Assembly: GCA_017983675.1 (NCBI GenBank)
Contig: JAGOAZ010000007.1
Coordinates: forward strand, 62,001 to 126,000
Origin: Fluviicola sp.
Lineage (GTDB): Bacteria > Bacteroidota > Bacteroidia > Flavobacteriales_D > Crocinitomicaceae
Direction: 5' to 3'
Length of the DNA: 64,000 nucleotides
Positions 15,889 through 45,600 of the stretch are shown one piece after another. Position 1 is the first letter of the stretch. Each line of letters starts with the position of its first letter. The notes below the pieces were generated by a model. It searched no databases. It was not told the DNA's origin and saw nothing but the letters and a program-made list of their open reading frames with translations. A program made the position numbers and the translations under genes.

Positions 15889-15896
15889 TATCTTTG
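15889..15896 (+). promoter_or_regulatory. Promoter of fic (-7 box TATCTTTG)
   Basis: A perfect TAnnTTTG box ends 3 nt before the ATG at 15900. Transcription should start at the start codon, giving leaderless mRNA. Confidence 0.65.
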
Positions 15897-15899
15897 GGT

Positions 15900-17760: not shown

Positions 17761-18006
17761 TTGATACCGAGCAAAACATTATTTATAACGTTTGTTGCAC
17801 AAGAATTACTTGTTGATGAATCGTTGATTGATTTCACAACTCCTTTCAGGCATATTAGAACTTGGAGTTCACTTAATGCTTTAGTATTGATTGCTCGTAT
17901 TAATGAAGAATTTGACGTAATGATTTCTTCTACCGACTTAGCGGGATTAGTTACACTTGAAGAGTTGTTTGAATTCATATCGACTAAGAAAAATGGCAAC
18001 AGCTAA
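17761..18006 (+). CDS. Acyl carrier protein (TTG start)
   Basis: This 81-residue acidic helical protein matches the ACP fold. The stretch TWSSLNALVLIARINEEF corresponds to the usual DSL...E region, with Ser37 as the probable phosphopantetheine site; the preceding Asp is replaced by Ser. ACPs of this type are common beside FabH-like ketosynthases in Bacteroidetes polysaccharide loci. No in-frame ATG exists near the N-terminus, so a TTG at 17761 is the most likely start and gives normal length. A near-match -7 box (TATTTTTA, 17732-17739) precedes it. The stop overlaps the next gene by 14 bp, which implies translational coupling. Confidence 0.8.
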   Translation: MIPSKTLFITFVAQELLVDESLIDFTTPFRHIRTWSSLNALVLIARINEEFDVMISSTDLAGLVTLEELFEFISTKKNGNS

Positions 18007-19021
18007 AATTTCTGGAACTCGAATAGTTGGAATTGTTTCAGTGGTTGCACCAAATACTACTGACAATTTATCCTCAGCGCAATTGCCTGAATCGACACGA
18101 GATTCGTTGGTTCATCATACGGGCATACGCTATCGAAAGCGTGCTGATCAAGATAGCACAATTAACGATTATTTTGGTTTTGCTATCAAAGAGTTGATCA
18201 AGCAACTTAATTGGGATTTGGCATCGATAGATGCATTGATTTGTGTCACTCAAACGCCACAACTTTCCATACCTTCAGTGGCTTGCCAACTACACGGAGA
18301 ATTAGCATTTACTCAAGCTACACTTGCGTTTGATATCAATTCAGGTTGTTCTGGTTTTGTCTATGGCTTGCATGCTGTTTCAAGTTTGTTAGCAAGTATT
18401 GATAAGCCGAAAAAACGCGCAATAATGTGTTGTGGTGATCTTTCAAGCACTTTGACACATCCAACCGATTTATCTGTAATACCTATTTTTTCAGATGCAG
18501 TATCAGCCATAGCTGTGGAAGTTGATAGTTCTGATAAAGAAATTACGGGCTATTTTAATTTGGAAACTGCAGGTTCTGGTCAACATGCTATCGCATTAAC
18601 TCCTCATGAAGATGGCAAAAAATATATGACTTTGAATGGAATTGACGTATATAATTATTCTGTTTCAATGGTTCCAAATAATATTTTGCAATTACTTTCT
18701 TTTGCTGATAAAAAGGTTGATTTTCCAGATTATTATTTTTTACATCAAGCAAATAAATTAATCAATGATTCAATTTGCAAGAAAATTTCTGTGCCTTTTG
18801 AAAAAGCGCCTTCAACCTTATATGACTATGGAAATACAGCATCAGCAAGTATTCCATTGACAATTAATACTGCTTGGAAAAAAGAACAATCCAGTAATAA
18901 ATGGGTACTGCTTTCAGGATTTGGTGTCGGGTTTTCAGTTGCTTCTTGTTTGTTGAAGTTTGATCCGGACATTTGCAATAAACCACTAGTTTATCCAATA
19001 AAATCAATTAAAAATGATTGA
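17993..19021 (+). CDS. FabH-like 3-oxoacyl-ACP synthase III
   Basis: This thiolase-fold enzyme of about 342 residues carries the KAS III triad: Cys119 (NSGCSGFVYG), His251 (FLHQANK) and Asn281 (YGNTASAS). It would condense an acyl starter with malonyl-ACP, presumably on the overlapping upstream ACP. The remainder (ICVTQTPQLSIPS, TGIRYRKRA) is typical of cluster-associated KAS III rather than housekeeping FabH. The ATG at 17993 was chosen because earlier in-frame codons lie within the ACP and add unrelated residues. It overlaps the next gene by 8 bp. The acyl product is unknown; a short acyl group for sugar acylation is plausible. Confidence 0.88.
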   Translation: MATAKISGTRIVGIVSVVAPNTTDNLSSAQLPESTRDSLVHHTGIRYRKRADQDSTINDYFGFAIKELIKQLNWDLASIDALICVTQTPQLSIPSVACQLHGELAFTQATLAFDINSGCSGFVYGLHAVSSLLASIDKPKKRAIMCCGDLSSTLTHPTDLSVIPIFSDAVSAIAVEVDSSDKEITGYFNLETAGSGQHAIALTPHEDGKKYMTLNGIDVYNYSVSMVPNNILQLLSFADKKVDFPDYYFLHQANKLINDSICKKISVPFEKAPSTLYDYGNTASASIPLTINTAWKKEQSSNKWVLLSGFGVGFSVASCLLKFDPDICNKPLVYPIKSIKND

Positions 19022-19919
19022 GTTAGATATCGTAATTCCTGTTTATAATTCAAGTAAAATTATAGGAGAATTGATTGGTCGATTGAATGATTGGCAACAA
19101 GAAATTTCTTTTCGCTTTCGCGTGATTTTTATAGATGACGCTAGTGTTGACCAATCGCATTTAATCATAGAACAAACGCCTAAAAACTTTGAATTTATCT
19201 GTGTTCGACTTGCCAAAAATTATGGTCAACATACAGCAACTGCTGTTGGTTTAAGTAGAACTTCAGCTCCATACGTTGCCACAATCGATGATGATTTACA
19301 ACACGATCCTCAGGAAATCAGTAAGTTGTTCGATCATTTAAAATCGACAGATGCGGATTTAGTTGTTGGAACATTTGAGGATAAAAAACATTCCTTGATA
19401 AGGAACTTAGGCAGTTTGTTTTTGAAACGAATTTTTTTGATTGAAGGATTTGATTATTCATCAGTAACCTCTTTTCGATTAATGAAAAAGTCTGTCGCAC
19501 ACGTTTTTAAAGATATTAATTCTCCGATACTTTTTATTGAAGAGTTTTTATTAAAAAGCGCGCGTGTTCGATCATCGTGTGCTATAAGTCATCACAAACG
19601 ATTTGATGGAAAATCAACATATTCGAGTTGGAAATTATTTAAATTTGCTTTAACAATACTCATTTACCATACTTCTTTACCACTAAAATTCATCGTACGA
19701 TTTGGGTTGATTATGGCGATATTTTTCTTTATTAGTGGCTGTTATTTTATTTATAATAAAGTGGTAAACGATGTTCAGCTGGGTTATACCTCAATAATTG
19801 TCGCCATCTTTTTTTCTACAGGTATGATATTGTTATCACTTGGAATTATCGGAGAATACATTCGGAAAATTTGGATTGCTCAGAATAATTTAGACAAGAT
19901 TATTACACTTGAAAAATAA
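19014..19919 (+). CDS. GT2 glycosyltransferase with C-terminal membrane segments (DPM1/GtrB-like)
   Basis: This 301-residue protein has a GT-A domain (1-220: LDIVIPVYNSSKII; VATIDDDLQHDPQEI with the metal-binding DDD) and two C-terminal transmembrane helices (about 230-250 and 262-285). Such enzymes typically charge polyprenyl phosphate with a sugar that is then flipped to the periplasm. It overlaps the ketosynthase by 8 bp and the following GNAT gene by 1 bp (TAATG), so these genes form one operon. Donor sugar unknown. Confidence 0.88.
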   Translation: MIELDIVIPVYNSSKIIGELIGRLNDWQQEISFRFRVIFIDDASVDQSHLIIEQTPKNFEFICVRLAKNYGQHTATAVGLSRTSAPYVATIDDDLQHDPQEISKLFDHLKSTDADLVVGTFEDKKHSLIRNLGSLFLKRIFLIEGFDYSSVTSFRLMKKSVAHVFKDINSPILFIEEFLLKSARVRSSCAISHHKRFDGKSTYSSWKLFKFALTILIYHTSLPLKFIVRFGLIMAIFFFISGCYFIYNKVVNDVQLGYTSIIVAIFFSTGMILLSLGIIGEYIRKIWIAQNNLDKIITLEK

Positions 19920-20434
19920 TGGAACTGGTAGGTTATGGCATAGCACTTTCTGCATTGACTTTTGAAGATATTGAACTGGTTCGAACTTGGCGCAATCAAG
20001 ATTTTGTTCGAAACCAAATGGAGTTTACTAATACAATTTCATTGAAAGAACAGGAGCGTTGGTTCAAACGAATAAACGCAGAAAACAGCTATTATTTCAT
20101 AATTAGTACTGAAAAAAAGCCGATAGGTCTGGTACATCTTAATCAGTTAAATTTAGCGTTACAATCTGCGCATGTTGGAATTTTTATTGGAGAAGCATCT
20201 TATATCGGAACTGGTATTTCCTTAAAAGTATCCCTATTGATTTTTCGGTTTGCGTTTGAGTCGCTTGCTTTAAAGACGCTTCATGCAAAAATCAACAACA
20301 AGAATGAAGCAGTTATTGCGTACAATCGTTTTTTAGGTTTTAAACAAACACAAGCAGGTGTTGATTTTTCAATCTGGTCGTTGACTTCAGAAGATTTTGA
20401 ATATTCAAAAAATCAGATAAAACGTTTGCTGTAA
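19919..20434 (+). CDS. GNAT N-acyltransferase (PseH/RimJ-like)
   Basis: This 171-residue GNAT-fold protein resembles amino-sugar N-acetyltransferases of the PseH type (WRNQDFVRNQM, ISLKEQERWF, ...KPIGLVHLNQL, the KINNKNEAVIAYNRFLGF block near the acyl-CoA site). With an ACP, a KAS III and a sugar aminotransferase in the same cluster, it probably acylates a 4-amino-dideoxy sugar, using acyl-CoA or acyl-ACP. The last point is an inference. The start overlaps the GT2 stop. It is convergent with the next gene, 2 bp between stops. Confidence 0.82.
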   Translation: MELVGYGIALSALTFEDIELVRTWRNQDFVRNQMEFTNTISLKEQERWFKRINAENSYYFIISTEKKPIGLVHLNQLNLALQSAHVGIFIGEASYIGTGISLKVSLLIFRFAFESLALKTLHAKINNKNEAVIAYNRFLGFKQTQAGVDFSIWSLTSEDFEYSKNQIKRLL

Positions 20435-20436
20435 GA

Positions 20437-21336
20437 TTATTTATCGAGAATTCGCCAGCGAATTTCATCACAGATTACTTTTATTTTGTGTAATCGAGAT
20501 TTACTTTCTAGTTCAAGTAGGTTCTGTGTGAATAGCGCAGGATTTAAAATGGTTTTTATCCATCTAAGTGGAAAAGGCAACGTTTGATAAGGGAATTTAG
20601 CGCGTTTGTATAATGGTTTTAATTCTGGCTGGATGCGTTCAAAAAATACCTTTTTATTATGAAAGTATAAGGGACTTTTTTTAAAGTTTAACACATCAAA
20701 ACCAATGTGAAAAGTTAAGTGTTCTTTTGTGTGAAAACTAGGGTTTTTAGCATGAGCAATTATATTGTGTATGAAACTTGTTTCGATAAATGGCATTCCA
20801 ATACAAATTTCATCAAAGTAAAATTTTGCCAGTAATGCTTTGTCAAACACGAAACAATCAAATCCTGGATGTGATTTTCCGACATCCGCATACATCGATG
20901 CTAAATTATTACTTTGAAAATGAGCTTTTGTTATTCTTCTGCGATTTATCACAAGTGCATCATGACCTTTATTGAGATAATTGACTACGAAATCATAAAA
21001 ATAGGGCATTAATGCAATATCAATGTTTGTGTAAATGAAGTAATCAACATCTTTCAAGTTTTTTAATTGATCAATGATATCGCCAATTAAAGGGAGTTTT
21101 CGATTGCTTAAATCTGGATGAATTGAACTAATTGATCGTTCTAAATCTGGTAACACAATAAATTCAGCAGGAATGATTTCGTGGTCTTCTGGATATTGTG
21201 TCGTATAGATAGTAATGTCAGCTCCTTTATGGTGTTTGATTGCTTCGTTTATACTCTGAAAAGTGATAGGTTGAACCAATGAAAGCTCATTATTTTTAGC
21301 TACTTTTACAGGGTTTATGATATGTGCAATTTTCAC
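20437..21336 (-). CDS. Glycosyltransferase-like protein, antisense in the cluster (GTG start)
   Basis: This 299-residue protein begins MKIAHIINPVKV and contains DVDYFIYTNIDIALMP, a DxD-like block seen in GT-A enzymes, followed by VINRRRITKAHF, HPGFDCFVFDKALL and FHIGFDVLNF. I recognise it as a glycosyltransferase-like conserved hypothetical, not a defined family. The start codon is GTG. It is the only minus-strand gene in a long plus-strand cluster and is squeezed between neighbours with 2 bp on each side. Confidence 0.65.
   Translation of the reverse strand: MKIAHIINPVKVAKNNELSLVQPITFQSINEAIKHHKGADITIYTTQYPEDHEIIPAEFIVLPDLERSISSIHPDLSNRKLPLIGDIIDQLKNLKDVDYFIYTNIDIALMPYFYDFVVNYLNKGHDALVINRRRITKAHFQSNNLASMYADVGKSHPGFDCFVFDKALLAKFYFDEICIGMPFIETSFIHNIIAHAKNPSFHTKEHLTFHIGFDVLNFKKSPLYFHNKKVFFERIQPELKPLYKRAKFPYQTLPFPLRWIKTILNPALFTQNLLELESKSRLHKIKVICDEIRWRILDK
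21301..21308 (+). promoter_or_regulatory. Possible -7 box for the aminotransferase operon (TACTTTTA)
   Basis: TACTTTTA is one base from TAnnTTTG and lies 30 nt before the ATG at 21339, inside the antisense glycosyltransferase gene. No well-spaced TTG is visible. It is listed because some promoter must lie in this gene. Confidence 0.25.
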
Positions 21337-21338
21337 GA

Positions 21339-22472
21339 ATGGAAAAAATTAAATTCAATAACAGCTGTAAATCTACTCATTTTAACGAATACATTGAGTT
21401 GTTGCAGTCTGATTATGATTTATTGCGCCAAAAACACTTTTCATCATTGTGTTTAGCGACATTATCACAGCACTATCAGTCAGCAAAATTGTTTTTAACA
21501 CATTCTGCAACAGGTGCTTTAGAAATGATTGCCGATTTAATGGAAATTAAACCCGGCGACGAGATAATTCTTCCATCATACACATTTGTATCATCAGCAA
21601 ATGCCTTTGTTTCAAGGGGAGCGACGCCAGTTTTCGTTGACATAGATGAATCAAGTATGTCGTTAACTCTTTCCTCGATTTCAGCAGCGATTTCTCCAAA
21701 CACAAAAGCCGTTTTACTTGTTCATTATTTTGGACATTCTACCAATGTTGCCGAAATCAAACAACTGTGTAAAGCCAATAATTTACTTTTTATTGAAGAT
21801 GCTGCTATGGGATATGGTTCATCTTTTGAATCGCAGCCTTTAGGCGTTTTTGGTGATTTCGGAGTTGTGAGTTTTGATGTAACAAAGCATATTTCAGCAA
21901 TTCAAGGAGGTTTATTGATCGTGAACAATGATTTTTATTCAAAACGCGCTACACATTTGTATCACAATGGCACTAATCGGGAGGAATTTCAAGATGGAAA
22001 CGTTCCGTATTATGAGTGGGTTGATATTGGCTCTAAATATCAAATGAATGAATTGAACGCCGCTTTTTTATGGAGCCAACTTCAAGTCCAAGACGAACTC
22101 TTCGCACATCGAAAAAAATGTTCTCTAAGTTATTACGAAGCATTGTTACCACTTCAAGAGGCTGGACATATTCAGTTAATGGAAAAGCAATTTGTTGCGA
22201 ACAACATTCATGGGTTTTACATTGTTTTGGCGACACATGCGCAACGAGAAGAATTAAGAACTTATTTGCTTTCAAATGGAATAGAGGCTTTGTTTCATTA
22301 TATACCCTTGCATTTGTCTAAAAAAGCAATAGAACTTACTGGTGCAATTCGTTTGTCAACAACAGAAAAAATAGCGGATACACTTTTGCGCTTACCTTTT
22401 CATGATTTAATTACAGCGAAAGAAATAAAGATTATTTCCTCATTCATTCATTCTTTTTTCAATGAAAAATAA
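21339..22472 (+). CDS. DegT/DnrJ/EryC1/StrS (WecE-like) sugar aminotransferase
   Basis: This PLP-dependent enzyme of about 377 residues should transaminate a nucleotide-linked 4-keto-6-deoxy sugar. Family blocks are SATGALEMIADL, GDEIILPSYTFVSSANAFV, GATPVFVDID, EDAAMGYGS, the PLP-lysine region SFDVTKHISAIQGG and the substrate-binding YHNGTNREEF...YQMNELNAAF. The sequence after the Lys differs from the usual GEGG. Best fit is WecE/RffA, making dTDP-Fuc4N-like sugars. The ATG at 21339 is 2 bp from the divergent GTG start. It overlaps the ABC permease by 11 bp. Confidence 0.9.
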   Translation: MEKIKFNNSCKSTHFNEYIELLQSDYDLLRQKHFSSLCLATLSQHYQSAKLFLTHSATGALEMIADLMEIKPGDEIILPSYTFVSSANAFVSRGATPVFVDIDESSMSLTLSSISAAISPNTKAVLLVHYFGHSTNVAEIKQLCKANNLLFIEDAAMGYGSSFESQPLGVFGDFGVVSFDVTKHISAIQGGLLIVNNDFYSKRATHLYHNGTNREEFQDGNVPYYEWVDIGSKYQMNELNAAFLWSQLQVQDELFAHRKKCSLSYYEALLPLQEAGHIQLMEKQFVANNIHGFYIVLATHAQREELRTYLLSNGIEALFHYIPLHLSKKAIELTGAIRLSTTEKIADTLLRLPFHDLITAKEIKIISSFIHSFFNEK

Positions 22473-23292
22473 GTCCTTATTTCAAACGAAGTATCAGCCA
22501 GAATCGGATAGTTTTGTGGTTTTTTTACAGAAAATAATCCAAAATTCTCATCTGATTTGGGTTTTTGCAAAAAGAGATATCAGTGTAAAATATGCACAAA
22601 CAAGTTTGGGCTATTTTTGGGCCCTGTTACAACCCCTTGTTGCGTTGGTTATTTACACCGTGTTTTTTGGGTTTGTATTAAATTGGGAATCAGACAATAT
22701 TCCTTTTCCAATATATGTCTTAACAGGACTTTTGGGCTGGAATTTATTTTCATACATAGTAAATGTTGGGACGTTGAGTTTTTTTGATGGCGGAAATTTG
22801 ATGAAGAAAATTTATTTCCCTAAAATCATTTTACCCTTTTCAAAAGTGATTATTGGATTAGTTGATTTGCTTATTGGATTATTACTTCTTATTCCACTTT
22901 TTATTTATTATGACCTATCCATTTCATGGAAAGTAATTGTCATTCCAGTTGTCATGTTATTAACTGCAATGTGTGGTTTGACATTGGTGTTTTGGTTAAC
23001 CATTTTTTCGTATAAAAAAAGAGATGTTTTGCATGTGATTCCATTCATAATAAATTATGGAATTTGGTTAACCCCTGTTTTCTTTAGTGCAACAATTTTA
23101 CCAGTTAAATTGCGCTTTATTTTAGATTTTAATCCGATGAATTCAATAATAAATTGTTGGCGTTGGACATTGTTTGATTCGGTACATTTTCAATTGAATT
23201 GGTTGTATTCTTTGGCAGGTATGATCGTGTTTTTTATTTTTGGATTATATTTTTTTAATAAAGCAGCGAACAAAATAGCAGATTACATATAA
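22462..23292 (+). CDS. ABC-2 type polysaccharide/lipid-glycan export permease (Wzm-like)
   Basis: This 276-residue protein has six predicted membrane helices and the family blocks FVFAKRDISVKYAQTSLGYFWALLQPL (read across about 31-57), LLGWNLFSY and FFDGGNLMKKIYFPKIILPFSK. It would export an undecaprenyl-linked O-antigen or another glycolipid. The partner ATPase (Wzt) is not next to it and not anywhere in this window, which is unusual because the two genes are normally adjacent. It overlaps the aminotransferase gene by 11 bp. Confidence 0.9.
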   Translation: MKNKSLFQTKYQPESDSFVVFLQKIIQNSHLIWVFAKRDISVKYAQTSLGYFWALLQPLVALVIYTVFFGFVLNWESDNIPFPIYVLTGLLGWNLFSYIVNVGTLSFFDGGNLMKKIYFPKIILPFSKVIIGLVDLLIGLLLLIPLFIYYDLSISWKVIVIPVVMLLTAMCGLTLVFWLTIFSYKKRDVLHVIPFIINYGIWLTPVFFSATILPVKLRFILDFNPMNSIINCWRWTLFDSVHFQLNWLYSLAGMIVFFIFGLYFFNKAANKIADYI

Positions 23293-23350
23293 CAAACGCA
23301 CACCAGCGAGCAAATAGCTTTCACACCATTTTACCAACACAACATGCCTC

Positions 23351-25486
23351 ATGAGCATAAAAGATTTCGATTTTACCACGTGGGAATTTTCTCAAAATCC
23401 GTATCGGTTTTATGACGCTTTACGTCCTTTTGGGTCTGTTCATTTTCTACCAAAGAATAATACATATCTTGTAACAGGCTACCAAGAAATCGTGGCAATT
23501 TTAACAGACACCTCTGTTTTTTCATCAGGCGGGAACAATGTTTTTGATCCGATTTTATTGAATTGCGATCCGCCAGAACATGCAACAAACCGTAAAGTTT
23601 TTAATGGTAAAAACGCTCCTTTTTCACTTAATAGAGTCAACCAAATAGCACTAGAAAATAAAGCTATTTGTTCACGTTTATTTGATGGTTTGAGTAACAA
23701 TACTTCGTTTGATTTGTTGCGCGACTTGTCTTTGCCATTTTCATCATTGGTAATATTAAAAATTCTTGGAATTGAAACAACAGAATTGGATGAATTGCGC
23801 AATTGGTCAACAGATGCGGTGCTTACAAAAGCAATAGAGAACACGGATTATGCAACTGACATTTGGAATTTACTATTGCCGAAAGTTGAAAAATGGATTG
23901 ATCAAACGTTATCCTCACCGCACAAAACAGGATTGGCAGAAATTGTTTTTTTTGAAGGTGGCAGAACTTTTGATCGTCAGGAGATCATTAATTTTACCCG
24001 AGTACTATTATTGGGTGGAAATGAAACGACACCGAATTTAATTGCTTCAGCTTTCCTCAAGTTGGTAGAACATCCAGAAGTTTTTGATGCAGTTAAAAAC
24101 GATCATTCATTGATTGCTGCTGTTGTAAATGAAACATTGCGTTTAGAATCGCCAACACAATTAATCAAACGGATTACAACTGAAGATACAATAATTGCGG
24201 GGGTTCAAATACCTGCTCATTCATCGGTTACATTAGCCCTAGGAGCTGCAAACCGTGATCCAGAAGTTTTCGAAAATCCAACTGAATTTAATATTTTTCG
24301 TCCAGCTGGTAAAATAGTTTCCTTTGGATTTGGACCTCATTATTGTTTAGGTGCTCATTTATCTAAGCAAGAAGCAGCAATTGTTTTGTCTGAATTGATT
24401 TCACGTTATCCAGAAGTTACTTTACCAGCTAACTTTCAACCAGTTTATCGTCATTCCAGCCATATTCGAGGAATTACATCAATGCCACTACTTTTGAAAC
24501 CTTTTCAAACTGAAAAGTTGTCGTTGTACAAAAAAATTGCCCGAAAAGAGATTTCAACCAAACTGGAAGAATATGGTCATTTTCCGACATTTGAGAATTA
24601 TCCTGCGCTAGATTCAAAACGATGGATTTACACATATCCATCACCGTTTATTCATGCAAATGTTTGTGCATCATTATTAAAAGCGGGGGAATTTAATGAT
24701 CACTATTTAAATCAAGCAAAATCATTCTTAATTCAAACGAAAGAAACAGGTGATTTGTGGCGATTTTGGGATTTGAAGCAGGCACAAAACAACGTTCCGA
24801 TTGACATGGATGATACTGCGATCTGCTCGTATGTTTTGAATAAATTCGGTGTGACGCTTGCGAATAAGAAAATCATATTTTCACTTGTAAAACAGGATGG
24901 ACGTTTGTTAACTTGGTTGTTTCCGTCTTTACGATTAGCAATTTTAAATTTTCGGGTCTTTTTAAAATCAATTTTAACTTATAGTGCAATAAAACCAACA
25001 TTGAAGTCAGGAATGTTGGCAAAAAACGACACCGATATTTCAGTCATGGCAACTGTTTGCTTTTACCTGGGTAATACTGAAATAGCTTCTAAAATTGCAA
25101 AATATTGTGTTAAGAATTGGCAGCAAGAACAACTTGCAGGTCAATTTTATGACAATCAATTAATAGATGCCTTTCATGTTGCGCGCGCTTTTTCAGAGGG
25201 TGTTATTGAGTTTGAAGCGTTAAAAACTCAAATAAACGATTTGATTGCAACTAACTATAAACAGTATGATTTTATTTCTTTACTGTTAGCTGCTATTATT
25301 TCTGTTGATTTCGACCTGTCTTTTGATTTACAGTGCTCCATCAAGCGACTAATATTAGAACACGATTCCGTTGAAGAATCTATTGTTCAACATTATCCAT
25401 ATTTCACATCTAAGGATCGGAATTTTTATGCAGGATCTTCTGCTTTAACTGCTGCTTGGTTTTTGTTAGCAACAAAAGATTGGTAA
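23351..25486 (+). CDS. Cytochrome P450 fused to a C-terminal terpene-cyclase-like domain
   Basis: This 711-residue protein has two parts. Residues 1 to about 390 are a complete cytochrome P450: I-helix GGNETTPN, ExxR in NETLRLESP and the heme loop FGFGPHYCLGAHL (Cys about 332). No membrane anchor is present, so it is a soluble bacterial P450 needing external redox partners. Residues from about 395 to 711 form an all-helical domain with LWRFWD followed by DMDDTA (485-490), the acid motif (DxDD) of class II terpene cyclases, and a C-terminal GSSALTAAWFLLA. It may be an alpha/alpha-barrel prenyl-cyclase (TS-beta) domain; length is too short for a full gamma-beta cyclase. UbiA follows after 2 bp. 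The P450 call is firm; the cyclase-like call is tentative. Confidence 0.85.
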   Translation: MSIKDFDFTTWEFSQNPYRFYDALRPFGSVHFLPKNNTYLVTGYQEIVAILTDTSVFSSGGNNVFDPILLNCDPPEHATNRKVFNGKNAPFSLNRVNQIALENKAICSRLFDGLSNNTSFDLLRDLSLPFSSLVILKILGIETTELDELRNWSTDAVLTKAIENTDYATDIWNLLLPKVEKWIDQTLSSPHKTGLAEIVFFEGGRTFDRQEIINFTRVLLLGGNETTPNLIASAFLKLVEHPEVFDAVKNDHSLIAAVVNETLRLESPTQLIKRITTEDTIIAGVQIPAHSSVTLALGAANRDPEVFENPTEFNIFRPAGKIVSFGFGPHYCLGAHLSKQEAAIVLSELISRYPEVTLPANFQPVYRHSSHIRGITSMPLLLKPFQTEKLSLYKKIARKEISTKLEEYGHFPTFENYPALDSKRWIYTYPSPFIHANVCASLLKAGEFNDHYLNQAKSFLIQTKETGDLWRFWDLKQAQNNVPIDMDDTAICSYVLNKFGVTLANKKIIFSLVKQDGRLLTWLFPSLRLAILNFRVFLKSILTYSAIKPTLKSGMLAKNDTDISVMATVCFYLGNTEIASKIAKYCVKNWQQEQLAGQFYDNQLIDAFHVARAFSEGVIEFEALKTQINDLIATNYKQYDFISLLLAAIISVDFDLSFDLQCSIKRLILEHDSVEESIVQHYPYFTSKDRNFYAGSSALTAAWFLLATKDW

Positions 25487-25488
25487 TT

Positions 25489-26502: not shown

Positions 26503-26605
26503 CAGTTGTTTTTTAAGAATATGATTAGATTGGAAAAGAATATTAGTAAGCGTGAAACAACTAATAAGTTAAATAAGTCACTGAATTTTTAAGTCTAGCA
26601 GAACG

Positions 26606-28390: not shown

Positions 28391-28415
28391 ATGGTGTATT
28401 TTTCTGATAATTATG

Positions 28416-28423
28416 TAACTTTG
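28416..28423 (+). promoter_or_regulatory. Promoter of the epimerase operon (-7 box TAACTTTG)
   Basis: TAACTTTG matches TAnnTTTG and ends 8 nt before the ATG at 28432, so the leader would be at most a few nucleotides. It marks a probable second transcription unit inside the cluster. Confidence 0.55.
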
Positions 28424-28431
28424 TAAACTGA

Positions 28432-29370
28432 ATGAGTAAGATTTTAATTACTGGAGGAGCTGGATTTATAGGTTTTCATTTGCAGCAACAATTGATAAGC
28501 AAACACGAAGTGAAATGCATCGACAGTTTGCGTTGCGAAAAAACAGCATCCATTCATCGCGCTTCTTTGATGCCGTCAGTTTATCAATTAGACTGTTCAG
28601 ATGATTTTTCATCCACATTAGCTTTTCAACCAGACATCATCATTCATTTAGCAGCTGAAACAGGAGTTTCCGATTCAGAAATATTTCCTGAAAAATACAT
28701 AAAAACGAATGTCGACGCTACATTTAATGTGTTGGAGCAAGCACGTAAAATGGGAGTAAAGCATTTTATTTATGCAAGTAGTTCCTCTGTATATGAGCCT
28801 AATCAAGCAATCATGTCAGAATCATCTCCAACAGAATTTCAGTTGTCTTTTTATGGGACAACCAAAAAAATGATGGAGCAAATGGTCTCAAATTATTGCA
28901 GACAATTTGGAATGACTGCCATTGGTCTTCGTTTTTTTACCGTATATGGATCGTATACACGACCAGATATGGCGGGATATAAGTTTCTGAAGGGAATCCA
29001 AGACGGATCTCCGATAAAACAATACAATCATGGCGAAGTTTTACGCGATTTTACGCATGTAAGTGATGTTGTTCATTCAATTGAGCTATTACTTACGAAA
29101 ATCACCAGTGAACCTCTTGGTTTTCATCGTGTATTTAATATTGGTAATAGTTCACCAGTAACCGTAAAAAAATACATTCAACTAATTGCACAGGAACTGA
29201 ATAAGGAACCTGTGATCAATGATTTTCCATTACCAAAAAATGAATTACAAGCAACATTTAGTGATTCAACAAGCTTGGAACTTTATACGGGCTATAAACC
29301 TTCGGTTTCAATTGAAGTTGGCGTGAAAGAAATGGTAGATTGGTTTAAAACTGGTGCATATGAAGAATAA
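28432..29370 (+). CDS. NAD-dependent epimerase/dehydratase (nucleotide-sugar, extended SDR)
   Basis: This 312-residue extended short-chain dehydrogenase has the NAD-binding GGAGFIGFHL, HLAAETGVSDS, YASSSSVYEPNQ and the catalytic YxxxK in SFYGTTKKMMEQ. The pattern fits UDP-glucose 4-epimerase or UDP-glucuronate/galacturonate epimerases. It supplies a nucleotide sugar for the cluster. It overlaps the next gene by 11 bp. Confidence 0.9.
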   Translation: MSKILITGGAGFIGFHLQQQLISKHEVKCIDSLRCEKTASIHRASLMPSVYQLDCSDDFSSTLAFQPDIIIHLAAETGVSDSEIFPEKYIKTNVDATFNVLEQARKMGVKHFIYASSSSVYEPNQAIMSESSPTEFQLSFYGTTKKMMEQMVSNYCRQFGMTAIGLRFFTVYGSYTRPDMAGYKFLKGIQDGSPIKQYNHGEVLRDFTHVSDVVHSIELLLTKITSEPLGFHRVFNIGNSSPVTVKKYIQLIAQELNKEPVINDFPLPKNELQATFSDSTSLELYTGYKPSVSIEVGVKEMVDWFKTGAYEE

Positions 29371-30553
29371 TTGTTTTGTGTATGTTGTTTGTGGAGACAA
29401 AGAACATATTGACACGCTTCATTTTTCCTTACGTTATTTGAAGCACTTTTCTTCAAATAAAATTATTGTTTTAACGGATTCATCACGTAATGAAATACCA
29501 GTAGTTCACGATACTATCATTGATGTCAAAACGCCCGAAAAGTATAACAATCACCAAGCGAGCATCTATTTGAAAACGGGCGTTAATCAATTCTTACCAA
29601 AAGGAACCAATTACTGTTATTTAGACACAGATGTTTTAGCTTTATCTGCAGATTGCGACGCGGTATTTGAAGAATTTATTTCACCAATTCGTTTTGCAGC
29701 TGATCATTGTACGATGGAAAAATTTAGCGCTTATGCAGTTAATTGTGATTGTTTGACGGATTGGAAAAAAGATTGGGATGCATATCACTCCTCATTTTCG
29801 AATCACGATAAAAATAAATCGATAACAGATCAAGGTTTATTGAACCATAGCAGACGATTAAAAGCGAGTTTTGAACAGATTAAAACAAACAAAAGAACCC
29901 GTATTTTTAAAGCACTTCGCTATATCCTGAGTTGGCCGATTTTTAAATACAGTGATGATTATTTTTTCAATAAAAAAGATCGTACTTGGCAACTCAAAAC
30001 AGGAGAGGTCATATTATACGAAACACCTTACAAGCAAATAGCTGCTGAAACAGGTTTGAAATACAGTTGGTTGAGACAAAGGTGGCAAAAATCAACTGGT
30101 GAAGATTTGTGGAAATCATCGTGCAATCACCTAGCGCAAGCAATTGAAACGGACTTTCAAATTGATGTAAAAGATACAAATTGGCAACATTGGAATGGCG
30201 GATTATTTCTGTTTAATGATTCCAGTGAACAGTTTCTTTCAACTTGGCATACTTTAACGTTAACTGCATTCGATTTGCCTAATTGGAAAACGAGAGATCA
30301 AGGGACATTAATTGCGACTGTATGGAAACTGGGGCTTGAAAATCAACCAGTATTAACTAAAAAGTGGAATTTTCTTGCAGATGCGAATAACGAACACATG
30401 ACTTTTGAAGGAAAAGGAAAGTTTAATGATGGTTCATCAATTCGATCATTTGATGTTGCATTGATACATATCTATCATCGATTTGGAGATGTAACATGGG
30501 ATTTGTGGAATCATATTCAGCATGATTATTTAAAGGTAGATAATGAAAAATAG
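29360..30553 (+). CDS. Putative glycosyltransferase (GT8-like)
   Basis: This protein of about 397 residues begins with VYVVCGDKEHIDTLHFSLRYL and holds the metal-binding YLDTDVLAL, WNGGLFLFND and a DQGTL block, a combination seen in GT-A enzymes of the GT8/GT-like type. A middle insert (about 180-270) rich in Lys and Trp is not recognised. The ATG at 29360 overlaps the end of the epimerase gene; a GTG 6 nt upstream is an alternative. It overlaps the next gene by 11 bp. Donor and acceptor unknown. Confidence 0.7.
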   Translation: MKNNCFVYVVCGDKEHIDTLHFSLRYLKHFSSNKIIVLTDSSRNEIPVVHDTIIDVKTPEKYNNHQASIYLKTGVNQFLPKGTNYCYLDTDVLALSADCDAVFEEFISPIRFAADHCTMEKFSAYAVNCDCLTDWKKDWDAYHSSFSNHDKNKSITDQGLLNHSRRLKASFEQIKTNKRTRIFKALRYILSWPIFKYSDDYFFNKKDRTWQLKTGEVILYETPYKQIAAETGLKYSWLRQRWQKSTGEDLWKSSCNHLAQAIETDFQIDVKDTNWQHWNGGLFLFNDSSEQFLSTWHTLTLTAFDLPNWKTRDQGTLIATVWKLGLENQPVLTKKWNFLADANNEHMTFEGKGKFNDGSSIRSFDVALIHIYHRFGDVTWDLWNHIQHDYLKVDNEK

Positions 30554-30998
30554 CTTGCAACGATATTATCATTTTTTAGTAGCTAAAAAAAGATTTTTTG
30601 GCTTAGGACTTATCTATTTGATTTGTAGTTTAATAATTGGTGAGTTTCATCCGTTTTCACGTTTTCCGATGTATAATTCATTTCCAAATTGGTCGTATGT
30701 GTTTTATTACACAGATAAGGAAGGTCAATTAATTCCAGCAAAACAATTGCAAACAAATACGGGACATTTAGCTCACATGTTTTACACAGCTTGTGGAACA
30801 TTACAGATTGAATATGGAAATGGAATAGAAACGCAACAAGAATTAAAACGATTGGGTCTTGAAATAACCAAGCAAGTGGGGCAACTTATTCAATTGCCGA
30901 AACCTAGAAAAGTGAAATTACACCGGGTTTACTTTTATAAAGTAGCCACTGAAATGAGAAAAAAAGATGTCATTATTTATGAAGGATTTATACAGTAA
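30543..30998 (+). CDS. Small membrane-anchored protein preceding an HTTM-like gene
   Basis: This 151-residue protein has one hydrophobic segment (about 17-36: FFGLGLIYLICSLIIGEF) followed by HPFSRFPMYNSFPNWSYVFYYTD and a mixed C-terminal domain (about 55-151). I do not recognise a named domain. It overlaps the previous gene by 11 bp and the following membrane gene by 32 bp, so the two membrane proteins are probably translated together and act together. Confidence 0.65.
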   Translation: MKNSLQRYYHFLVAKKRFFGLGLIYLICSLIIGEFHPFSRFPMYNSFPNWSYVFYYTDKEGQLIPAKQLQTNTGHLAHMFYTACGTLQIEYGNGIETQQELKRLGLEITKQVGQLIQLPKPRKVKLHRVYFYKVATEMRKKDVIIYEGFIQ

Positions 30999-31845
30999 TC
31001 AAGTTTCATTTTCGCAAAATAACAACGAGTGGCTTGGTTTTAAAGTGCCTTTTGTTATTTTCTTTTTTATGTTAGCTTTTGATATTTTAAGCGCATACTC
31101 GTCCGTTAATTTTCCAGTTGCATTTTGTGCGTTAGGACTTTGCGAATGGGTTTCGGTTTTTTCAATCAAGCTTTTCATTGTTTTTTTATTATTGCTTTTT
31201 TCAGCAGCATATATTTTTGAATACAAAATGAAAGTGACGTTGGGATTTCTTTCCATTTTCAGTATCCTGCTTTTTTCTATTGAAGAATCGAATGGGATAA
31301 TGAACAGAGCGAGTTTAATGTCTATGGTTTTTGTCGCACAATGGATAGCCTATTTTTTGTACGAAAACCAAACGAATAATTTAATGAAATTCAGGTTACA
31401 GTTTGGTATTCAATTAGTGGTTGCGACGTATATGCTTTCGGCTATTTCAAAACTAGCGACATCAGGATTTTCATGGATAAGTGATAGTCAATATGCCGTA
31501 CTTCAGATCCAGAAATCAATTTATTATAATTTTTTTGATTCAAATAACACCTCCTTCATCAAAGAGGGTGCTCATTTTGTTCAATTTATGAATCAGCACA
31601 GCACATTCTTTAGTTTGTTGTTTTTAAGTGCATTAGTCATTGAATTCACTGTTTTTGTTGCTTTGTTTAATTCGAAAATGCGCATTCTTTATGGGTTTTT
31701 ATTATTAGCAATGCACATAGGGATTTTCATTGTTATGGATATAATCATTATACATGTTTTCATTCCGATGTTTTTATTGTTACTTAATCCTTTTTATTAC
31801 TTAACAATTTTACTTCAAGGAACATTTAAACGATTGAAAAGATGA
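30967..31845 (+). CDS. Polytopic membrane protein, HTTM-like
   Basis: This 292-residue protein has about seven hydrophobic helices. The blocks NRASLMSMVFVAQWIAYFLYE and YMLSAISKLATSGFSWISD resemble the HTTM (vitamin K gamma-carboxylase-related) membrane family, which in bacteria often has a paired small protein. The match is by eye and moderate. An alternative start is the ATG at 30979. It overlaps the next gene by 4 bp (ATGA). Confidence 0.6.
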   Translation: MSLFMKDLYSNQVSFSQNNNEWLGFKVPFVIFFFMLAFDILSAYSSVNFPVAFCALGLCEWVSVFSIKLFIVFLLLLFSAAYIFEYKMKVTLGFLSIFSILLFSIEESNGIMNRASLMSMVFVAQWIAYFLYENQTNNLMKFRLQFGIQLVVATYMLSAISKLATSGFSWISDSQYAVLQIQKSIYYNFFDSNNTSFIKEGAHFVQFMNQHSTFFSLLFLSALVIEFTVFVALFNSKMRILYGFLLLAMHIGIFIVMDIIIIHVFIPMFLLLLNPFYYLTILLQGTFKRLKR

Positions 31846-32741
31846 GTCATTTTGCAACGATAACAACACAGTCTCATTTTTTTAAAGTTTTTGCTTTAGC
31901 AGAAAGTCTAAAAAACTTTGCGATAACGCTTCATGTCTTGGTTGTTGATGGAGATACATTCCCACAAGAATACCCCTCGAATATTGAGTTTTATAAATTG
32001 ACTGACATTCCCAACCCATTAGTGAGCCAATTGGGAAAAAAATACAAAGGTGATCGCTTGCGTTGGTCATTAAAACCTGTTTTTTTAATCAATTTATTAG
32101 CAAAGCACGAACGGGTTGTCTATGTTGACAATGATATTTTCTTTTATTCCAACCCTCAATTTATCGTGAATTATCTGGAGAAACATTCTCTGGTTTTGAC
32201 CCCGCATTTTTATCGTGATTCGCCATTTGAAGAACAGAATTGGTTAGAAGCAAATTTCAGAGTCGGATTATTTAATGCTGGCTTTATAGGCGCAAATAGA
32301 CATGCAGTTACATTTTTAACTTGGTGGGCTAATTGTTGTTTGTTTTCAGTGAAAAAAGCTTATTGGAGAGGTTTGTTTGACGATCAGAAATACTTGGATT
32401 TGGCACCTGTTAAAGTACCTGATTTGAAAATTTTACATCACCGAGGGTGTAATTTAGCTGGTTGGAATGATGTGGATTTACGATTTGAAAAGAAAGACGA
32501 GTTAGTTTATATCAATGGGGTAGATCAATTGGTGTTTATTCATTTTGCTGAATTAACCATGAAACAATTCAGTCAAAAAAATCATTTCCTGAATAAACAA
32601 TTCGAAGAATATATATCAAAACTACAAAAGTTTAAAGAAGCCTATACGTTTAAAACACGTATATTGACATGGACAAAGGTTAAAGATTTTTGTTATTTCT
32701 TAATTTGGAGAATGATTGTAACCAGAAAAGTTATAAAATGA
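31842..32741 (+). CDS. Putative glycosyltransferase (GT8-like)
   Basis: This 299-residue protein shows a GT-A pattern: RVVYVDNDIFFYSNP (DxD), LFNAGFIGANR, FDDQKYLDLAP and HHRGCNLAGWN. It resembles family 8-type or capsular sugar transferases whose sugar donors are nucleotide-linked. The first residues (MSHFATITTQSHFFKVFALAESL) are typical of such proteins. It is coupled by 4-bp ATGA overlaps on both sides, to the HTTM-like gene and to the dioxygenase gene. Substrate unknown. Confidence 0.75.
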   Translation: MSHFATITTQSHFFKVFALAESLKNFAITLHVLVVDGDTFPQEYPSNIEFYKLTDIPNPLVSQLGKKYKGDRLRWSLKPVFLINLLAKHERVVYVDNDIFFYSNPQFIVNYLEKHSLVLTPHFYRDSPFEEQNWLEANFRVGLFNAGFIGANRHAVTFLTWWANCCLFSVKKAYWRGLFDDQKYLDLAPVKVPDLKILHHRGCNLAGWNDVDLRFEKKDELVYINGVDQLVFIHFAELTMKQFSQKNHFLNKQFEEYISKLQKFKEAYTFKTRILTWTKVKDFCYFLIWRMIVTRKVIK

Positions 32742-33598
32742 AAATAAAAGATATTATATCAGCTAAAGCATTTGAAAAAGATGGTTTTTTCGTGATCGAA
32801 GATTTTTTTGATGTAAATACGATCAATGAAATTCAAGAATTTTATGATTCATTTAATTTTGATACGAATCCTGAATTAAATACAAATATAAAATCATGTA
32901 CTAAAAATGAAAACATCCAGATTAGTGATTATTTAAAGTCAAAATATGAATTGGAAATCGATAAATATTTTGATGAAGTTCAATTAGGTGGTGGCGTTTT
33001 TATTATGAAAGGTAGTGGTGAGAAGAGCATCTCTTCTTTGCATCAAGATTTCAATGTAGTGGATGAGCAAAAATATAAATCAATTACTATTTGGTGTCCT
33101 TTGATTGATGTTGATGAACAAAATGGTTGCATGCAATTTGTCAAAGGAAGTCATCAATGGTTTAATTCAATTCGTTCTTTCAATATGCCAACTTGTTTTT
33201 TAGATTTTCATTTAGTTAGCGAATATTTAGTTTCTGTTTCATTAAAAAAAGGGTCTGTTGTGGTATTTAATCATAGTGTTTTCCATGGTTCAAAACCTAA
33301 TTACAGTCAAAACTTTAGACCAGCTGCAGCTTTTAGTTTATTATCAAAAGATGCTACTCCACTTCATTATTGGAGAGATAATAAACAGATCAATGTTTAT
33401 CAAATAGATGAAGATTTTTACAATGAAAAAGCGCAACAATTATTTTCTGGTAAATCTTCAGAATCGTTGCAATTGATTGATTCATTTCCCTTCAAAGAAG
33501 AATATATCATTACTGAAAAAAAGGTGGCTGATTTTTTAAGTAATAAAAAAAGTGTTTTTCAAAGAATAAAAACAATTTTTAACCATAAAATCAAATAA
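32738..33598 (+). CDS. Phytanoyl-CoA dioxygenase (PhyH) family protein
   Basis: This Fe(II)/2-oxoglutarate-dependent oxygenase of about 286 residues has the facial triad His102-x-Asp104 (SLHQDF) and His183 (VFHGS), with the 2-oxoglutarate-binding Arg194 (FRPAAAFSL). PhyH relatives hydroxylate small molecules, lipids or sugars in natural-product and glycan pathways. The start at 32738 overlaps the previous stop as ATGA; an in-frame start 48 nt upstream was rejected for that reason. The following gene starts 1 base after the stop. The substrate may be a sugar or prenyl intermediate of this cluster, but this is not shown. Confidence 0.85.
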   Translation: MKIKDIISAKAFEKDGFFVIEDFFDVNTINEIQEFYDSFNFDTNPELNTNIKSCTKNENIQISDYLKSKYELEIDKYFDEVQLGGGVFIMKGSGEKSISSLHQDFNVVDEQKYKSITIWCPLIDVDEQNGCMQFVKGSHQWFNSIRSFNMPTCFLDFHLVSEYLVSVSLKKGSVVVFNHSVFHGSKPNYSQNFRPAAAFSLLSKDATPLHYWRDNKQINVYQIDEDFYNEKAQQLFSGKSSESLQLIDSFPFKEEYIITEKKVADFLSNKKSVFQRIKTIFNHKIK

Positions 33599-33599
33599 A

Positions 33600-36131
33600 T
33601 TGGAAACGATCTCTTTAAAAAAACACTTTTTGTTTTTAGCATTATTGGTCATGTTGGTGTTCGGTAATACATTATCAAATGATTACAACATGGATGATAA
33701 TTTGGTGACGCAACATCACCGATTAACATCAAAGGAAAGTGATAGTTCATTACTCTCTATTTTTACGGAACCATATTACAAAGACGACATGGGATATTCC
33801 TATGGATATCGACCATTAGTTACATTGTCATTTGCAATAGAACATCAATTATTTGATGAATCGGCAAAAGTTAGTCACTTTTTTAATCTGTTAATTTATG
33901 CTGGCGTCGTATTGTTATTATTTCGTTTTCTAGTAAGTTATTTTGGTTCAGATCGACTTCAATTGTTCTTTTTCACAGCAGTATTGTTTGCCGTTCATCC
34001 AATTCATACAGAAGTTGTCGCAAGCATTAAAAACAGGGATGAATTATTGGCTTTATTGTTCTCTTTATTAGGCGCATTAGCAGGATTAAAATTTATAAAA
34101 AGAACGAGTTTCCTTCAATTAGCATACAGTGTCATCTTTTTTTCATTAGCGATATTATCGAAGAAAAGTATTTTCCCCTTGATTTTTATTTTACCGATTA
34201 TTCTCGTTTTTATTCAGCAAGAGAAAATCAAACTGATCTTAATTTTTCAATTAATTGTTGCCTTGCCCTTAGTCGTTTTCGCATCCGATTTTGATCCATT
34301 GAAGGGAGCGAAACTTTATCTCTTAGTAGTTGTTTTTAGTGGACTACTATTACTAGCTAAAGCTATTTTTAAGCAGCAGGAAAAGCTTATGAAGAGCACG
34401 CATTTATTGACTATTGTCACGGTTTCTTTTTCTATTCTCTTTTTCGCTTTATTTCTGTATTATCATCAATATCTATTGTTGGTGTTTTCGGTGATTGTTT
34501 CACTTTTTGTCGTAAAAAAATCACTGTTTCTAGTAATATCGCAAAATGTCATTCAACTTGTTATTACTTCTTTCATTTATGATATTCCAGAGTTGAAAGA
34601 AGTGACTATTTTCCTTTCAATAGGTTATCTAGTCTATTTGATTAGCCAAAAAAACTGGAAACTCATCAAGTGGTTTTCACCTGTTTTAGGATGTGCCATT
34701 TTACCGATAATTTTTGATTTTAATTGGAATTTAGTACTTGTATTGATTACATCGATATTGTTTTTCATTTTAGTTTTCAAAAAATGGCTAATCGGTATGT
34801 TGTATGTTTTGTTTTCGAGTAGTATAGCTTTTTTCGCATTCAAATTAGGACTCATTCATTTCTTGTTAGCTGGTTTTACCTTGATTTATTTTGTGGAGCT
34901 TCAAGTAAAATTGAAACGTATTAAAGTGTTTGTTCTTTCTTTCTCAGTGATTGCAATTTTGGGATTAGTTCGTTTGGATACATCTTATTTTTATGATTTT
35001 TTTGTTCAAATAGATTCATCCCAAGTGGCACTTTCAATCAAATCGAGTGATCGTAATCAATTGGAGGAAACACGTCAGATAAATATGAAAGAAGGACGTC
35101 GTTTAGGTTACATAGAAAATACTTTAGTTGCACCGCATAATCAATCGCAAACGATTGCAACAGGTATTTATACGCTCGGAAAATATGGTCAGTTATTAAT
35201 TTTTCCTTTGAAACAATCTAGTTACTATGGGTTTTCAAGTGTTCAAACAATGGACTTTCATTCGATTTGGGTATGGTTATCATTTTTGTTTTACATCGGC
35301 TTAATGATTGTTGCAATCTATTTTTTCAATAAAGATAAAATAATCACGATTGGTATTTTTTGGTTTTTGCTGAGTATACTGTTATTTAGTAATTGGACTG
35401 AATTAGTTGCTGGTATGGTTGCAGAACGATTAGCCTTCACTGCATCTGTTGGTTTTATTTTAGCCATTGCAGCAGTTGTTTATTATTTTCATCCAACGTT
35501 AAATCTCTTAAAACCCAAAAAGAAAGACATTCTGATACATTTAATTTTGTTTGCTCTTGTTGTTATTACAATGAAACGAAATGGCGTATGGAAAGATGCA
35601 GTTACATTGTTTTCAAACGATTTAAAGGCAGAACCTCAATCAGCACAATTAAACAATTTGTATGCATTATCTTTGATGAAAGATGTGACAGAAAATAGCT
35701 TATTGACAAGTGAAGAAAAAAAGGAGTATAATTTAAAAGCAATTCATCATTTTGAAAATGCATGTAGCATTTATCCATACTCATTTAATTTTTATTTTGA
35801 CCTTGGTAGAAGCTGTGTTTTAGCTCAAAATTTCAAAAAAGCATTCATTTCATTTGAAAAAGCATACCAAATTGTCCCTAAAAACATTTTAGTTTTAGAA
35901 GAACTTGTGAAAACAGCATTTGATTTAAAAATGAAAAATGAAACTGTTTATTATGGAAGAAAATATTTATCTATTTCCCCTAATAATGTTCAGATACACG
36001 AATTGGTCGCTTATATATGCCTATTAAACAAGGATTTAGAGTTGACGCGTTATTTTGCAAAAAATGCATTGAAGTTATTTCCAACAAATCAAAATTTCAA
36101 ACAAATGTTGATAGATACAGCAGAGAAGTAG
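33600..36131 (+). CDS. TMTC-like multi-span membrane protein with C-terminal TPRs (putative O-glycosyltransferase)
   Basis: This 843-residue protein has about a dozen hydrophobic helices and C-terminal tetratricopeptide-like helices (about 670-835: FNFYFDLGRSCVLAQNFKKAFISFEKA). Early blocks match the GT-C/TMTC pattern: NDYNMDDNLV, YRPLVTLSFAIEHQLF and AVHPIHTEVVASIKNRDELLALL. TMTC and related proteins use polyprenyl-phosphate sugars to O-mannosylate proteins; here it might glycosylate exported proteins. The start is a TTG one base after the PhyH stop; no ATG lies near. It is the last gene of the cluster, just before the giant adhesin gene. Confidence 0.78.
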   Translation: METISLKKHFLFLALLVMLVFGNTLSNDYNMDDNLVTQHHRLTSKESDSSLLSIFTEPYYKDDMGYSYGYRPLVTLSFAIEHQLFDESAKVSHFFNLLIYAGVVLLLFRFLVSYFGSDRLQLFFFTAVLFAVHPIHTEVVASIKNRDELLALLFSLLGALAGLKFIKRTSFLQLAYSVIFFSLAILSKKSIFPLIFILPIILVFIQQEKIKLILIFQLIVALPLVVFASDFDPLKGAKLYLLVVVFSGLLLLAKAIFKQQEKLMKSTHLLTIVTVSFSILFFALFLYYHQYLLLVFSVIVSLFVVKKSLFLVISQNVIQLVITSFIYDIPELKEVTIFLSIGYLVYLISQKNWKLIKWFSPVLGCAILPIIFDFNWNLVLVLITSILFFILVFKKWLIGMLYVLFSSSIAFFAFKLGLIHFLLAGFTLIYFVELQVKLKRIKVFVLSFSVIAILGLVRLDTSYFYDFFVQIDSSQVALSIKSSDRNQLEETRQINMKEGRRLGYIENTLVAPHNQSQTIATGIYTLGKYGQLLIFPLKQSSYYGFSSVQTMDFHSIWVWLSFLFYIGLMIVAIYFFNKDKIITIGIFWFLLSILLFSNWTELVAGMVAERLAFTASVGFILAIAAVVYYFHPTLNLLKPKKKDILIHLILFALVVITMKRNGVWKDAVTLFSNDLKAEPQSAQLNNLYALSLMKDVTENSLLTSEEKKEYNLKAIHHFENACSIYPYSFNFYFDLGRSCVLAQNFKKAFISFEKAYQIVPKNILVLEELVKTAFDLKMKNETVYYGRKYLSISPNNVQIHELVAYICLLNKDLELTRYFAKNALKLFPTNQNFKQMLIDTAEK

Positions 36132-45576: not shown

Positions 45577-45600
45577 TCGATTAAATTAAAATTTAAAGTC

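Follow-up and report, generated by a model that had tools for sequence, protein, structure and literature searches.

A class II terpene cyclase, a P450 and a UbiA-family enzyme inside a Wzm-type glycan locus of Fluviicola: a candidate cassette for a terpenoid-bearing exported glycan

What is made by a gene cluster in which a terpene cyclase, a cytochrome P450 (P450) and a membrane prenyltransferase lie among the genes of an exported glycan? The question is raised by a span of about 18 kb in Fluviicola sp. (positions 17761–36131 of the 64,000-nucleotide stretch of DNA analyzed here, referred to as the window, which is positions 62001–126000 of contig C33, JAGOAZ010000007.1, in a 2.85-Mb genome). 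An initial annotation had suggested that the cluster may make an acylated, prenyl- or terpene-bearing glycolipid or glycoprotein modification. The cluster is real, conserved and patchily distributed, and although each of its enzymes is of a known kind, the combination appears new. Chances seem evenly balanced that the cluster is a mobile cassette of Bacteroidota for assembling and exporting a glycan or glycolipid that bears a cyclized terpenoid.

The cyclase domain of the P450 fusion protein

The terpenoid part of that suggestion gains its main support from a domain that the initial annotation had left unnamed, as it had the membrane proteins at 30543 and 30967. The fusion protein consists of a P450 with an intact heme-ligand motif (residues 1–393) and a C-terminal half (residues 394–711) that, judged from profiles and a structural model, is a single-domain (TCbeta) class II terpene cyclase. 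A Pfam search with residues 394–711 gave no match, and sister proteins match SQHop_cyclase_C, mostly below the cut-off. Searches of the PDB with phmmer using either the cyclase domain alone or the UbiA protein alone also found nothing, so that profiles were needed. A 13-member cyclase profile had a sole strong match in the PDB, to the drimenol synthase AsDMS (E 1.5e-16); the next match, squalene-hopene cyclase, reached only E 0.0026. This agrees independently with the fold of a model built from ten relatives (predicted local distance difference test score, pLDDT, 86.9; predicted template modelling score, pTM, 0.89), to which AsDMS is again closest (Foldseek E 2e-8; VIA Z 28.3, 278 residues aligned, root-mean-square deviation 2.8). 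Next come squalene-hopene cyclase and MstE, a monodomain cyclase of meroterpenoids, at Z 22–23, and unrelated alpha/alpha barrels score clearly lower, at Z 16–17.

The catalytic residues are retained. AsDMS requires D331, D333 and Y427 (PMC12365925) and carries a DxDTT motif (PMC9128629). The three residues align with D485, D487 and Y600 of the fusion, of which D487 and Y600 are invariant in 13 of 13 relatives and D485 is present in nearly all. The DMDDTA motif, aligned to DLDTT of AsDMS, has its middle Asp at the proton donor position, and the fourth Asp of DxDD is variable among relatives (D or S; AsDMS has T). Y600 aligns with the YY pair of AsDMS, in which Y427 is the Tyr that activates the catalytic Asp. 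The domain is predicted, from alignment and model, to start cyclization of a prenyl substrate by protonation.

Two characterized enzymes provide the closest comparisons. AsDMS, a bifunctional HAD-TCbeta drimenol synthase from Aquimarina spongiae (PDB 9mhs, 9m7d-f; PMC9128629, PMC12365925), shares the single class II beta domain, the Asp/Asp/Tyr set and the C-terminal position of the cyclase in a fused Bacteroidota protein. However, its partner is a HAD phosphatase whereas here it is a P450, and the cyclase here lies always or nearly always near a UbiA gene. The window protein was therefore not named a HAD-TCbeta drimenol synthase, since its N-terminal half is a P450 and it has no HAD phosphatase domain; nor is farnesyl diphosphate use or drimenol formation assumed for it. 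MstE, the monodomain merosterolic acid synthase of Scytonema (PDB 6sbb-6sbg; PMC9401909), has the same monodomain class II fold and acts on a prenylated acceptor, which is the order proposed below for the window cluster. It is the more distant of the two (Z 22 as against 28, no sequence match), and its acceptor is a dihydroxybenzoate.

The UbiA-family enzyme

The gene following the fusion encodes a UbiA-family protein with canonical motifs, NDxxDxxxD and a second Asp-rich motif preceded by an invariant Gln (N70, D74, D78 and Q195xxD198xxxD202 are invariant in 12 sequences). Its profile, compared with solved structures, is nearest to digeranylgeranylglyceryl phosphate synthase (DGGGPS; E 5e-9), with decaprenyl-phosphate phosphoribosyltransferase (DPPRS) at E 0.3. 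In NCBIfam it scores below cut-off against chlorophyll-synthase, DGGGPS-like and further prenyltransferase models, and no phosphoribosyltransferase model is among the matches. These results speak against assignment as a polyprenyl-phosphate phosphoribose synthase (PPPRS).

The comparison matters for the three-component pentofuranose system of Citrobacter youngae (PMC11127046), which the window resembles in having a UbiA-family enzyme and a GT-C glycosyltransferase in a glycan locus. Unlike that system, the window cluster encodes neither a HAD phosphatase nor a MATE flippase in a Pfam scan of all 17 genes, and its UbiA profile is nearer to the prenyl-transferring members of the family. Together, the motif and profile results argue against the phosphoribosyl role known from the C. 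youngae pathway. The acceptor of the predicted prenyl transfer need not be aromatic.

A conserved neighborhood across Bacteroidota

Seven cyclase loci came from a scan of named genomes and more from whole-genome searches, giving 22 including the window. The other 21 carry the cyclase, most of them with the same surroundings. The cyclase is rare: 4 of 240 Crocinitomicaceae genomes have a strong match, and the 13 other genomes of the genus have no strong one. The cyclase family was taken to exclude a stop-ridden match (L006/L010) and the 480–520 aa proteins of L053, L086 and L087.

In Crocinitomicaceae, Saprospiraceae, Chitinophagales and other Bacteroidota, the cyclase and UbiA are found together again, accompanied by P450, Wzm/Wzt, AsnB, epimerase, glycosyltransferase, PhyH and TMTC genes. 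Of the 22 loci, 18 have a UbiA gene no more than 9 kb from the cyclase, compared with about 0.03 expected per locus near a random gene, given four UbiA genes in 2.85 Mb. In three of the loci without UbiA (L075, L084, L085) the contig ends at most about 1.5 kb from the cyclase; L052 is the remaining one. A P450, fused or nearby, is found in 11 of the 22 loci, as are AsnB and the glycosyltransferase-like gene GTy (11 each), and Wzm and/or Wzt occur in 14, a count that excludes the generic ABC ATPases of L049 and L052. Pairwise distances between homologs co-vary (cyclase-P450, r 0.93; UbiA-AsnB, 0.66; cyclase-UbiA, 0.57).

Gene order is also kept. In another family, L078 and L080 have the same P450-cyclase fusion (716–717 aa) and the same gene order, which in L080 reads GTx(-)-DegT-Wzm-Wzt-...-PhyH-...-P450/cyclase-UbiA-AsnB-Epim-GTy-GTz-PhyH-TMTC. 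Three further loci (L017, L075, L079) show (ACP-)KASIII-GT2-GNAT-GTx(opposite strand)-Wzm, the window order minus DegT, and the ACP-KASIII-GT2-GNAT block travels together in L017, L075 and, as far as its contig extends, L079. This recurrence supports the acylated amino-sugar part of the initial suggestion, as the cyclase does its terpenoid part. The opposite orientation of GTx is conserved in L008, L017, L075, L079 and L080. Recurrence of the same gene sets in distant genomes indicates that the clustering is not chance; had the genes been unrelated neighbors in homologous loci, the initial interpretation would have failed, and the opposite was found.

Several loci have peculiarities of their own. 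L008 contains an N-terminal DegT remnant (4141–4317; 47% identity over 60 aa) that abuts the divergent GTx just before Wzm, so that DegT was seemingly lost through internal deletion. At L052 (1806–9791), the cyclase-family gene lies by four nitrile-hydratase-leader-like peptides, a radical S-adenosylmethionine (SAM)-like protein and an ABC transporter gene, which suggests possible recruitment of the family near a locus for a ribosomally synthesized and post-translationally modified peptide (RiPP). In L051, a P450 is fused to an acyltransferase domain (PF00698; 10246–12339) in a locus with a cyclase, a sulfotransferase, a GT2 and a UbiA. Also found repeatedly by the cyclase, in L007, L009, L012, L017, L075, L076, L083 and L085, are sulfotransferases, SPASM-type radical SAM enzymes and transglutaminase-like proteins; the window has none of these. 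A 391-aa protein with a weak match to a styrene monooxygenase substrate-binding domain (L077, 11652–12827; L079, 5727–6902) could possibly be an epoxidase acting on the prenyl chain.

A split Wzm/Wzt exporter and an ABBA prenyltransferase

Related loci have Wzt adjoining Wzm, whereas the window cluster has Wzm alone. The window Wzm matches the Wzm, VexB and KpsM models of NCBIfam, all below cut-off, and is 44–51% identical to the Wzm proteins of related loci and 34% identical to the genome's second Wzm, one with a Wzt of its own. On contig C11 of the same genome there is an orphan 444-aa Wzt with a C-terminal extension and 39–46% full-length identity to the cluster Wzt proteins. It is the first gene of a three-gene island (L025, 7305–10375) set between housekeeping genes and far from the cluster, and is followed by an ABBA prenyltransferase homolog and a 281-aa glycosyltransferase-like gene. 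In L077 the same kind of set, consisting of Wzt, an ABBA gene and a gene of 280 aa whose N-terminal sequence is similar, lies inside the cluster. The window Wzm and the C11 Wzt would thus form one exporter module that is split in this genome, as their identities to the paired proteins suggest.

The gene often found beside Wzt in relatives models as an ABBA barrel (L008 protein: KgpF, Foldseek E 1e-6; DciF, Z 17.9), and the C11 copy was assigned by profile. Judged by sequence conservation, many Lys and Tyr residues, candidates for the diphosphate-binding positions, are invariant in four sister ABBA proteins and partly changed in C11, L077 and L078. The fold is shared with the cyanobactin prenyltransferases KgpF, PirF, PatF and DciF, but identity is about 10% and no peptide substrate gene was recognized here. 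Among open reading frames of at least 60 aa in the packed cluster, the size range searched, there is no obvious RiPP precursor. Overall, the locus shares with Wzm/Wzt-dependent O-antigen and capsule loci the Wzm permease, amino-sugar genes, glycosyltransferases and, in relatives, the C-terminal Wzt extension; it differs from them in having a terpene cyclase, P450 and prenyltransferases inside the locus, and in the placement of Wzm and Wzt on separate contigs in this genome.

Organization of the cluster and the sugar genes

Open reading frame calls with Pfam and NCBIfam searches give the following genes; GTx, GTy and GTz were called from DxD-like motifs and context.

17761–18006, + strand: acyl carrier protein (ACP; WSSL serine); PF00550, E 5e-7
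17957–19021, +: ketosynthase III (KASIII) with Cys (SGCSGF), His (LHQAN) and Asn (GNTAS) present; likelier ATG at 17993
19014–19919, +: GT2 glycosyltransferase, ArnC-like (polyprenyl-phosphate sugar synthase); PF00535, E 1e-22; best NCBIfam match PRK10714/ArnC, E 2e-29
19919–20434, +: GNAT N-acyltransferase, PseH-like
20437–21336, -: GTx, glycosyltransferase-like, no Pfam family; the sole minus-strand gene
21324–22472, +: DegT/WecE-like sugar 4-aminotransferase; likelier ATG at 21339
22462–23292, +: Wzm-type ABC-2 permease, no adjoining ATPase; PF01061, E 3e-12
23351–24529, +: P450 half of the fusion, residues 1–393, heme-ligand motif FGFGPHYCLG; PF00067, E 3e-28
24530–25486, +: class II terpene cyclase beta domain, residues 394–711; DMDDTA at 24803–24820; D485, D487, Y600
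25456–26502, +: UbiA-family membrane prenyltransferase; PF01040, E 2.5e-16; likelier ATG at 25489 or 25495
26606–28390, +: AsnB-like glutamine amidotransferase
28432–29370, +: NAD-dependent sugar epimerase/dehydratase
29354–30553, +: GTy, glycosyltransferase-like, DTDV motif, no Pfam family; kept in 10 other loci
30543–30998, +: membrane-anchored protein, 151 aa; recurs with the next gene's family in L076 and L077
30967–31845, +: polytopic membrane protein resembling the HTTM proteins of L009; no Pfam match
31842–32741, +: GTz, glycosyltransferase-like, DND motif, no Pfam family
32690–33598, +: PhyH-type 2-oxoglutarate/Fe(II) oxygenase; PF05721, E 2e-21; likelier ATG at 32738
33600–36131, +: TMTC-like membrane protein, a PMT_2-like GT-C part with tetratricopeptide repeats; conserved in L008, L009, L078, L080 and L083

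The initial annotation had counted about sixteen genes; there are 17, 16 of them on the plus strand and one on the minus strand, and the ACP, KASIII, GNAT, DegT, ABC permease, P450 fusion, UbiA, AsnB, epimerase, PhyH and TMTC-like assignments all hold at their coordinates. Its four glycosyltransferases are likewise present as four glycosyltransferase-like genes, but only the one at 19014–19919 falls in a Pfam glycosyltransferase family. Most adjacent genes do overlap or lie 1–2 bp apart, as had been described; the exceptions are gaps of 58, 103 and 41 bp 5′ of the P450 fusion, AsnB and epimerase, respectively. The minus-strand GTx is 2 bp from GNAT and overlaps or abuts the start of DegT. Since GTx is on the opposite strand, the cluster is not one operon. 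With operon limits set by strand and spacing, at least three transcription units are predicted (ACP-GNAT, GTx and DegT-TMTC). G+C content is 0.331 in the cluster and 0.369 in the remainder of the window.

The protein at 30967 was considered as an HTTM protein, but Pfam gives no such match and the name is kept as a resemblance only. At 30543–31845, and also in L076 (6307–7649) and L077 (2–3327), a polytopic protein of this HTTM-resembling kind is paired with a small membrane-anchored one.

Among the sugar genes, DegT is nearest to dTDP-4-keto-6-deoxyglucose transaminases, GNAT to PseH and GT2 to ArnC, and AsnB is nearest to amidotransferases that include a hydroxyamidotransferase. These similarities would fit an N-acylated 4-amino-4,6-dideoxysugar that is delivered on polyprenyl phosphate, together with an amidated component.

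Proposed product and pathway

In the preferred reading, UbiA would take a prenyl chain off its diphosphate and attach it to an acceptor, and the fused cyclase domain would protonate the chain and fold it into fused rings. MstE works in this way on a prenylated benzoate (PMC9401909), and no phosphatase domain would be required. This order is favored over free drimenol because of the missing HAD domain, with which AsDMS releases drimenol, and the constant UbiA neighbor; the diphosphate may instead be cyclized first. The fused P450 and the PhyH oxygenase would then oxidize the cyclized terpenoid, and related loci would add an ABBA prenyltransferase and sulfotransferases to this arm. On the sugar side, DegT would yield the 4-amino-4,6-dideoxysugar, KASIII and ACP would supply a short acyl group and GNAT would place it on the amine. 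The ArnC-like GT2 and the TMTC-like GT-C protein would hand the sugar on in the periplasm, with polyprenyl phosphate as its carrier. AsnB, epimerase, GTx, GTy and GTz would make, amidate and join the remainder, with the glycosyltransferases extending the molecule after oxidation, and the window Wzm with the C11 Wzt would export a product in which terpenoid and glycan are presumably linked covalently. That product could be a glycolipid, an O-antigen or capsule, or a glycan of proteins.

Exported bacterial polysaccharides mostly have lipid A, phospholipid/3-deoxy-D-manno-oct-2-ulosonic acid, undecaprenyl or simple methyl or phosphate groups as their anchors and caps. It is a tentative proposal, somewhat doubtful as yet, that the locus represents a new class of bacterial surface glycoconjugate, mobile across Bacteroidota, in which a glycan exported by Wzm/Wzt carries a cyclic oxidized terpenoid, perhaps as the lipid at its base or as an end cap recognized by Wzt. 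A polycyclic terpenoid on an exported glycan, if true, would be new surface chemistry. In the open literature, no locus joining a terpene cyclase with Wzm/Wzt, or with UbiA and polysaccharide genes, was found, though subscription papers may hold one; the papers searched likewise gave no P450-TCbeta fusion. Bacteroidota gain in this locus a new source of class II cyclases, its P450-TCbeta fusion is directly assayable, and genomes can be mined through the cyclase-UbiA pair for a family whose window member has no Pfam model.

Alternative explanations

Several observations weigh against a single terpenoid-bearing glycan. The cyclase of L052 is not accompanied by UbiA, distances of UbiA and Wzt show no co-variation (r 0.09), and the co-variation seen for other pairs may partly be shared species history. 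The C11 ABBA copy, like that of L077, is without some conserved residues, and no gene for an aromatic acceptor was recognized in the window, the part of the genome searched for aromatic acceptor synthesis. The small loci L049 and L050, which have no Wzm/Wzt, carry the cyclase-UbiA pair without O-antigen-type genes, although even there a glycosyltransferase adjoins the pair, which is in favor of the terpenoid-glycan reading. The submodules are separable, and not every gene need serve one molecule. These two loci are what would be expected if the terpenoid genes made a diffusible glycosylated (in relatives sulfated) terpenoid or meroterpenoid pumped out by the ABC exporter, the O-antigen-type genes being a separate neighboring locus. 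The MstE product is such a free meroterpenoid (PMC9401909), and drimane terpenoids with P450 tailoring are known from the CavA/CavC-type pathway of Streptomyces clavuligerus, a bacterial class II terpenoid system likened here by description only and for which the available part of the source describes no glycan or export genes (PMC11035983). Yet most loci interleave the terpenoid genes with Wzm/Wzt, AsnB, epimerase and glycosyltransferase genes in conserved order, and a Wzm/Wzt pair with a C-terminal Wzt extension is of the polysaccharide-exporter type, which makes a diffusible product unlikely, if the strongest of the competing explanations.

Less probable still is an ordinary Wzm/Wzt O-antigen or capsule with an N-acylated amino sugar, in which UbiA would be a polyprenyl-phosphate phosphoribosyltransferase, the TMTC-like protein would add a periplasmic pentofuranose and the cyclase would have some other role. 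An established pathway does combine UbiA with a GT-C enzyme in the locus of an ABC-exported glycan (PMC11127046), the low G+C content and sporadic occurrence reported above are typical of O-antigen loci, and L076 carries an FAD_binding_4 oxidase near a GT2. However, the UbiA profile and NCBIfam results point to prenyl transfer, its second motif is QxxDxxxD and not the R/E pair of PPPRS loop IV, the HAD phosphatase and MATE flippase are missing from the cluster, and cyclase, P450 and ABBA genes are left unexplained. That unrelated neighbors share a variable genomic region by chance, as three transcription units and detachable submodules might suggest, is very improbable: the synteny contradicts it, with the same association in about 20 genomes of several families and the P450-cyclase fusion and its flanking order kept in another family (L078, L080).

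Flanking genes

Upstream of the cluster lies a LOG-family gene. The LOG genes of genus relatives are, apart from one fragment, 42–50% identical to it and no closer than its own second copy on contig C12, an identity so low that an empty insertion site cannot be located in them. A gene for a Fic/DOC-family protein is also found upstream, at 15894–16856. Directly downstream, at 36256–48882, are the gene of a giant protein (3106 aa) that has HYR repeats and a type IX secretion signal and then PorP/SprF and OmpA genes, all of which are taken as outside the cluster.

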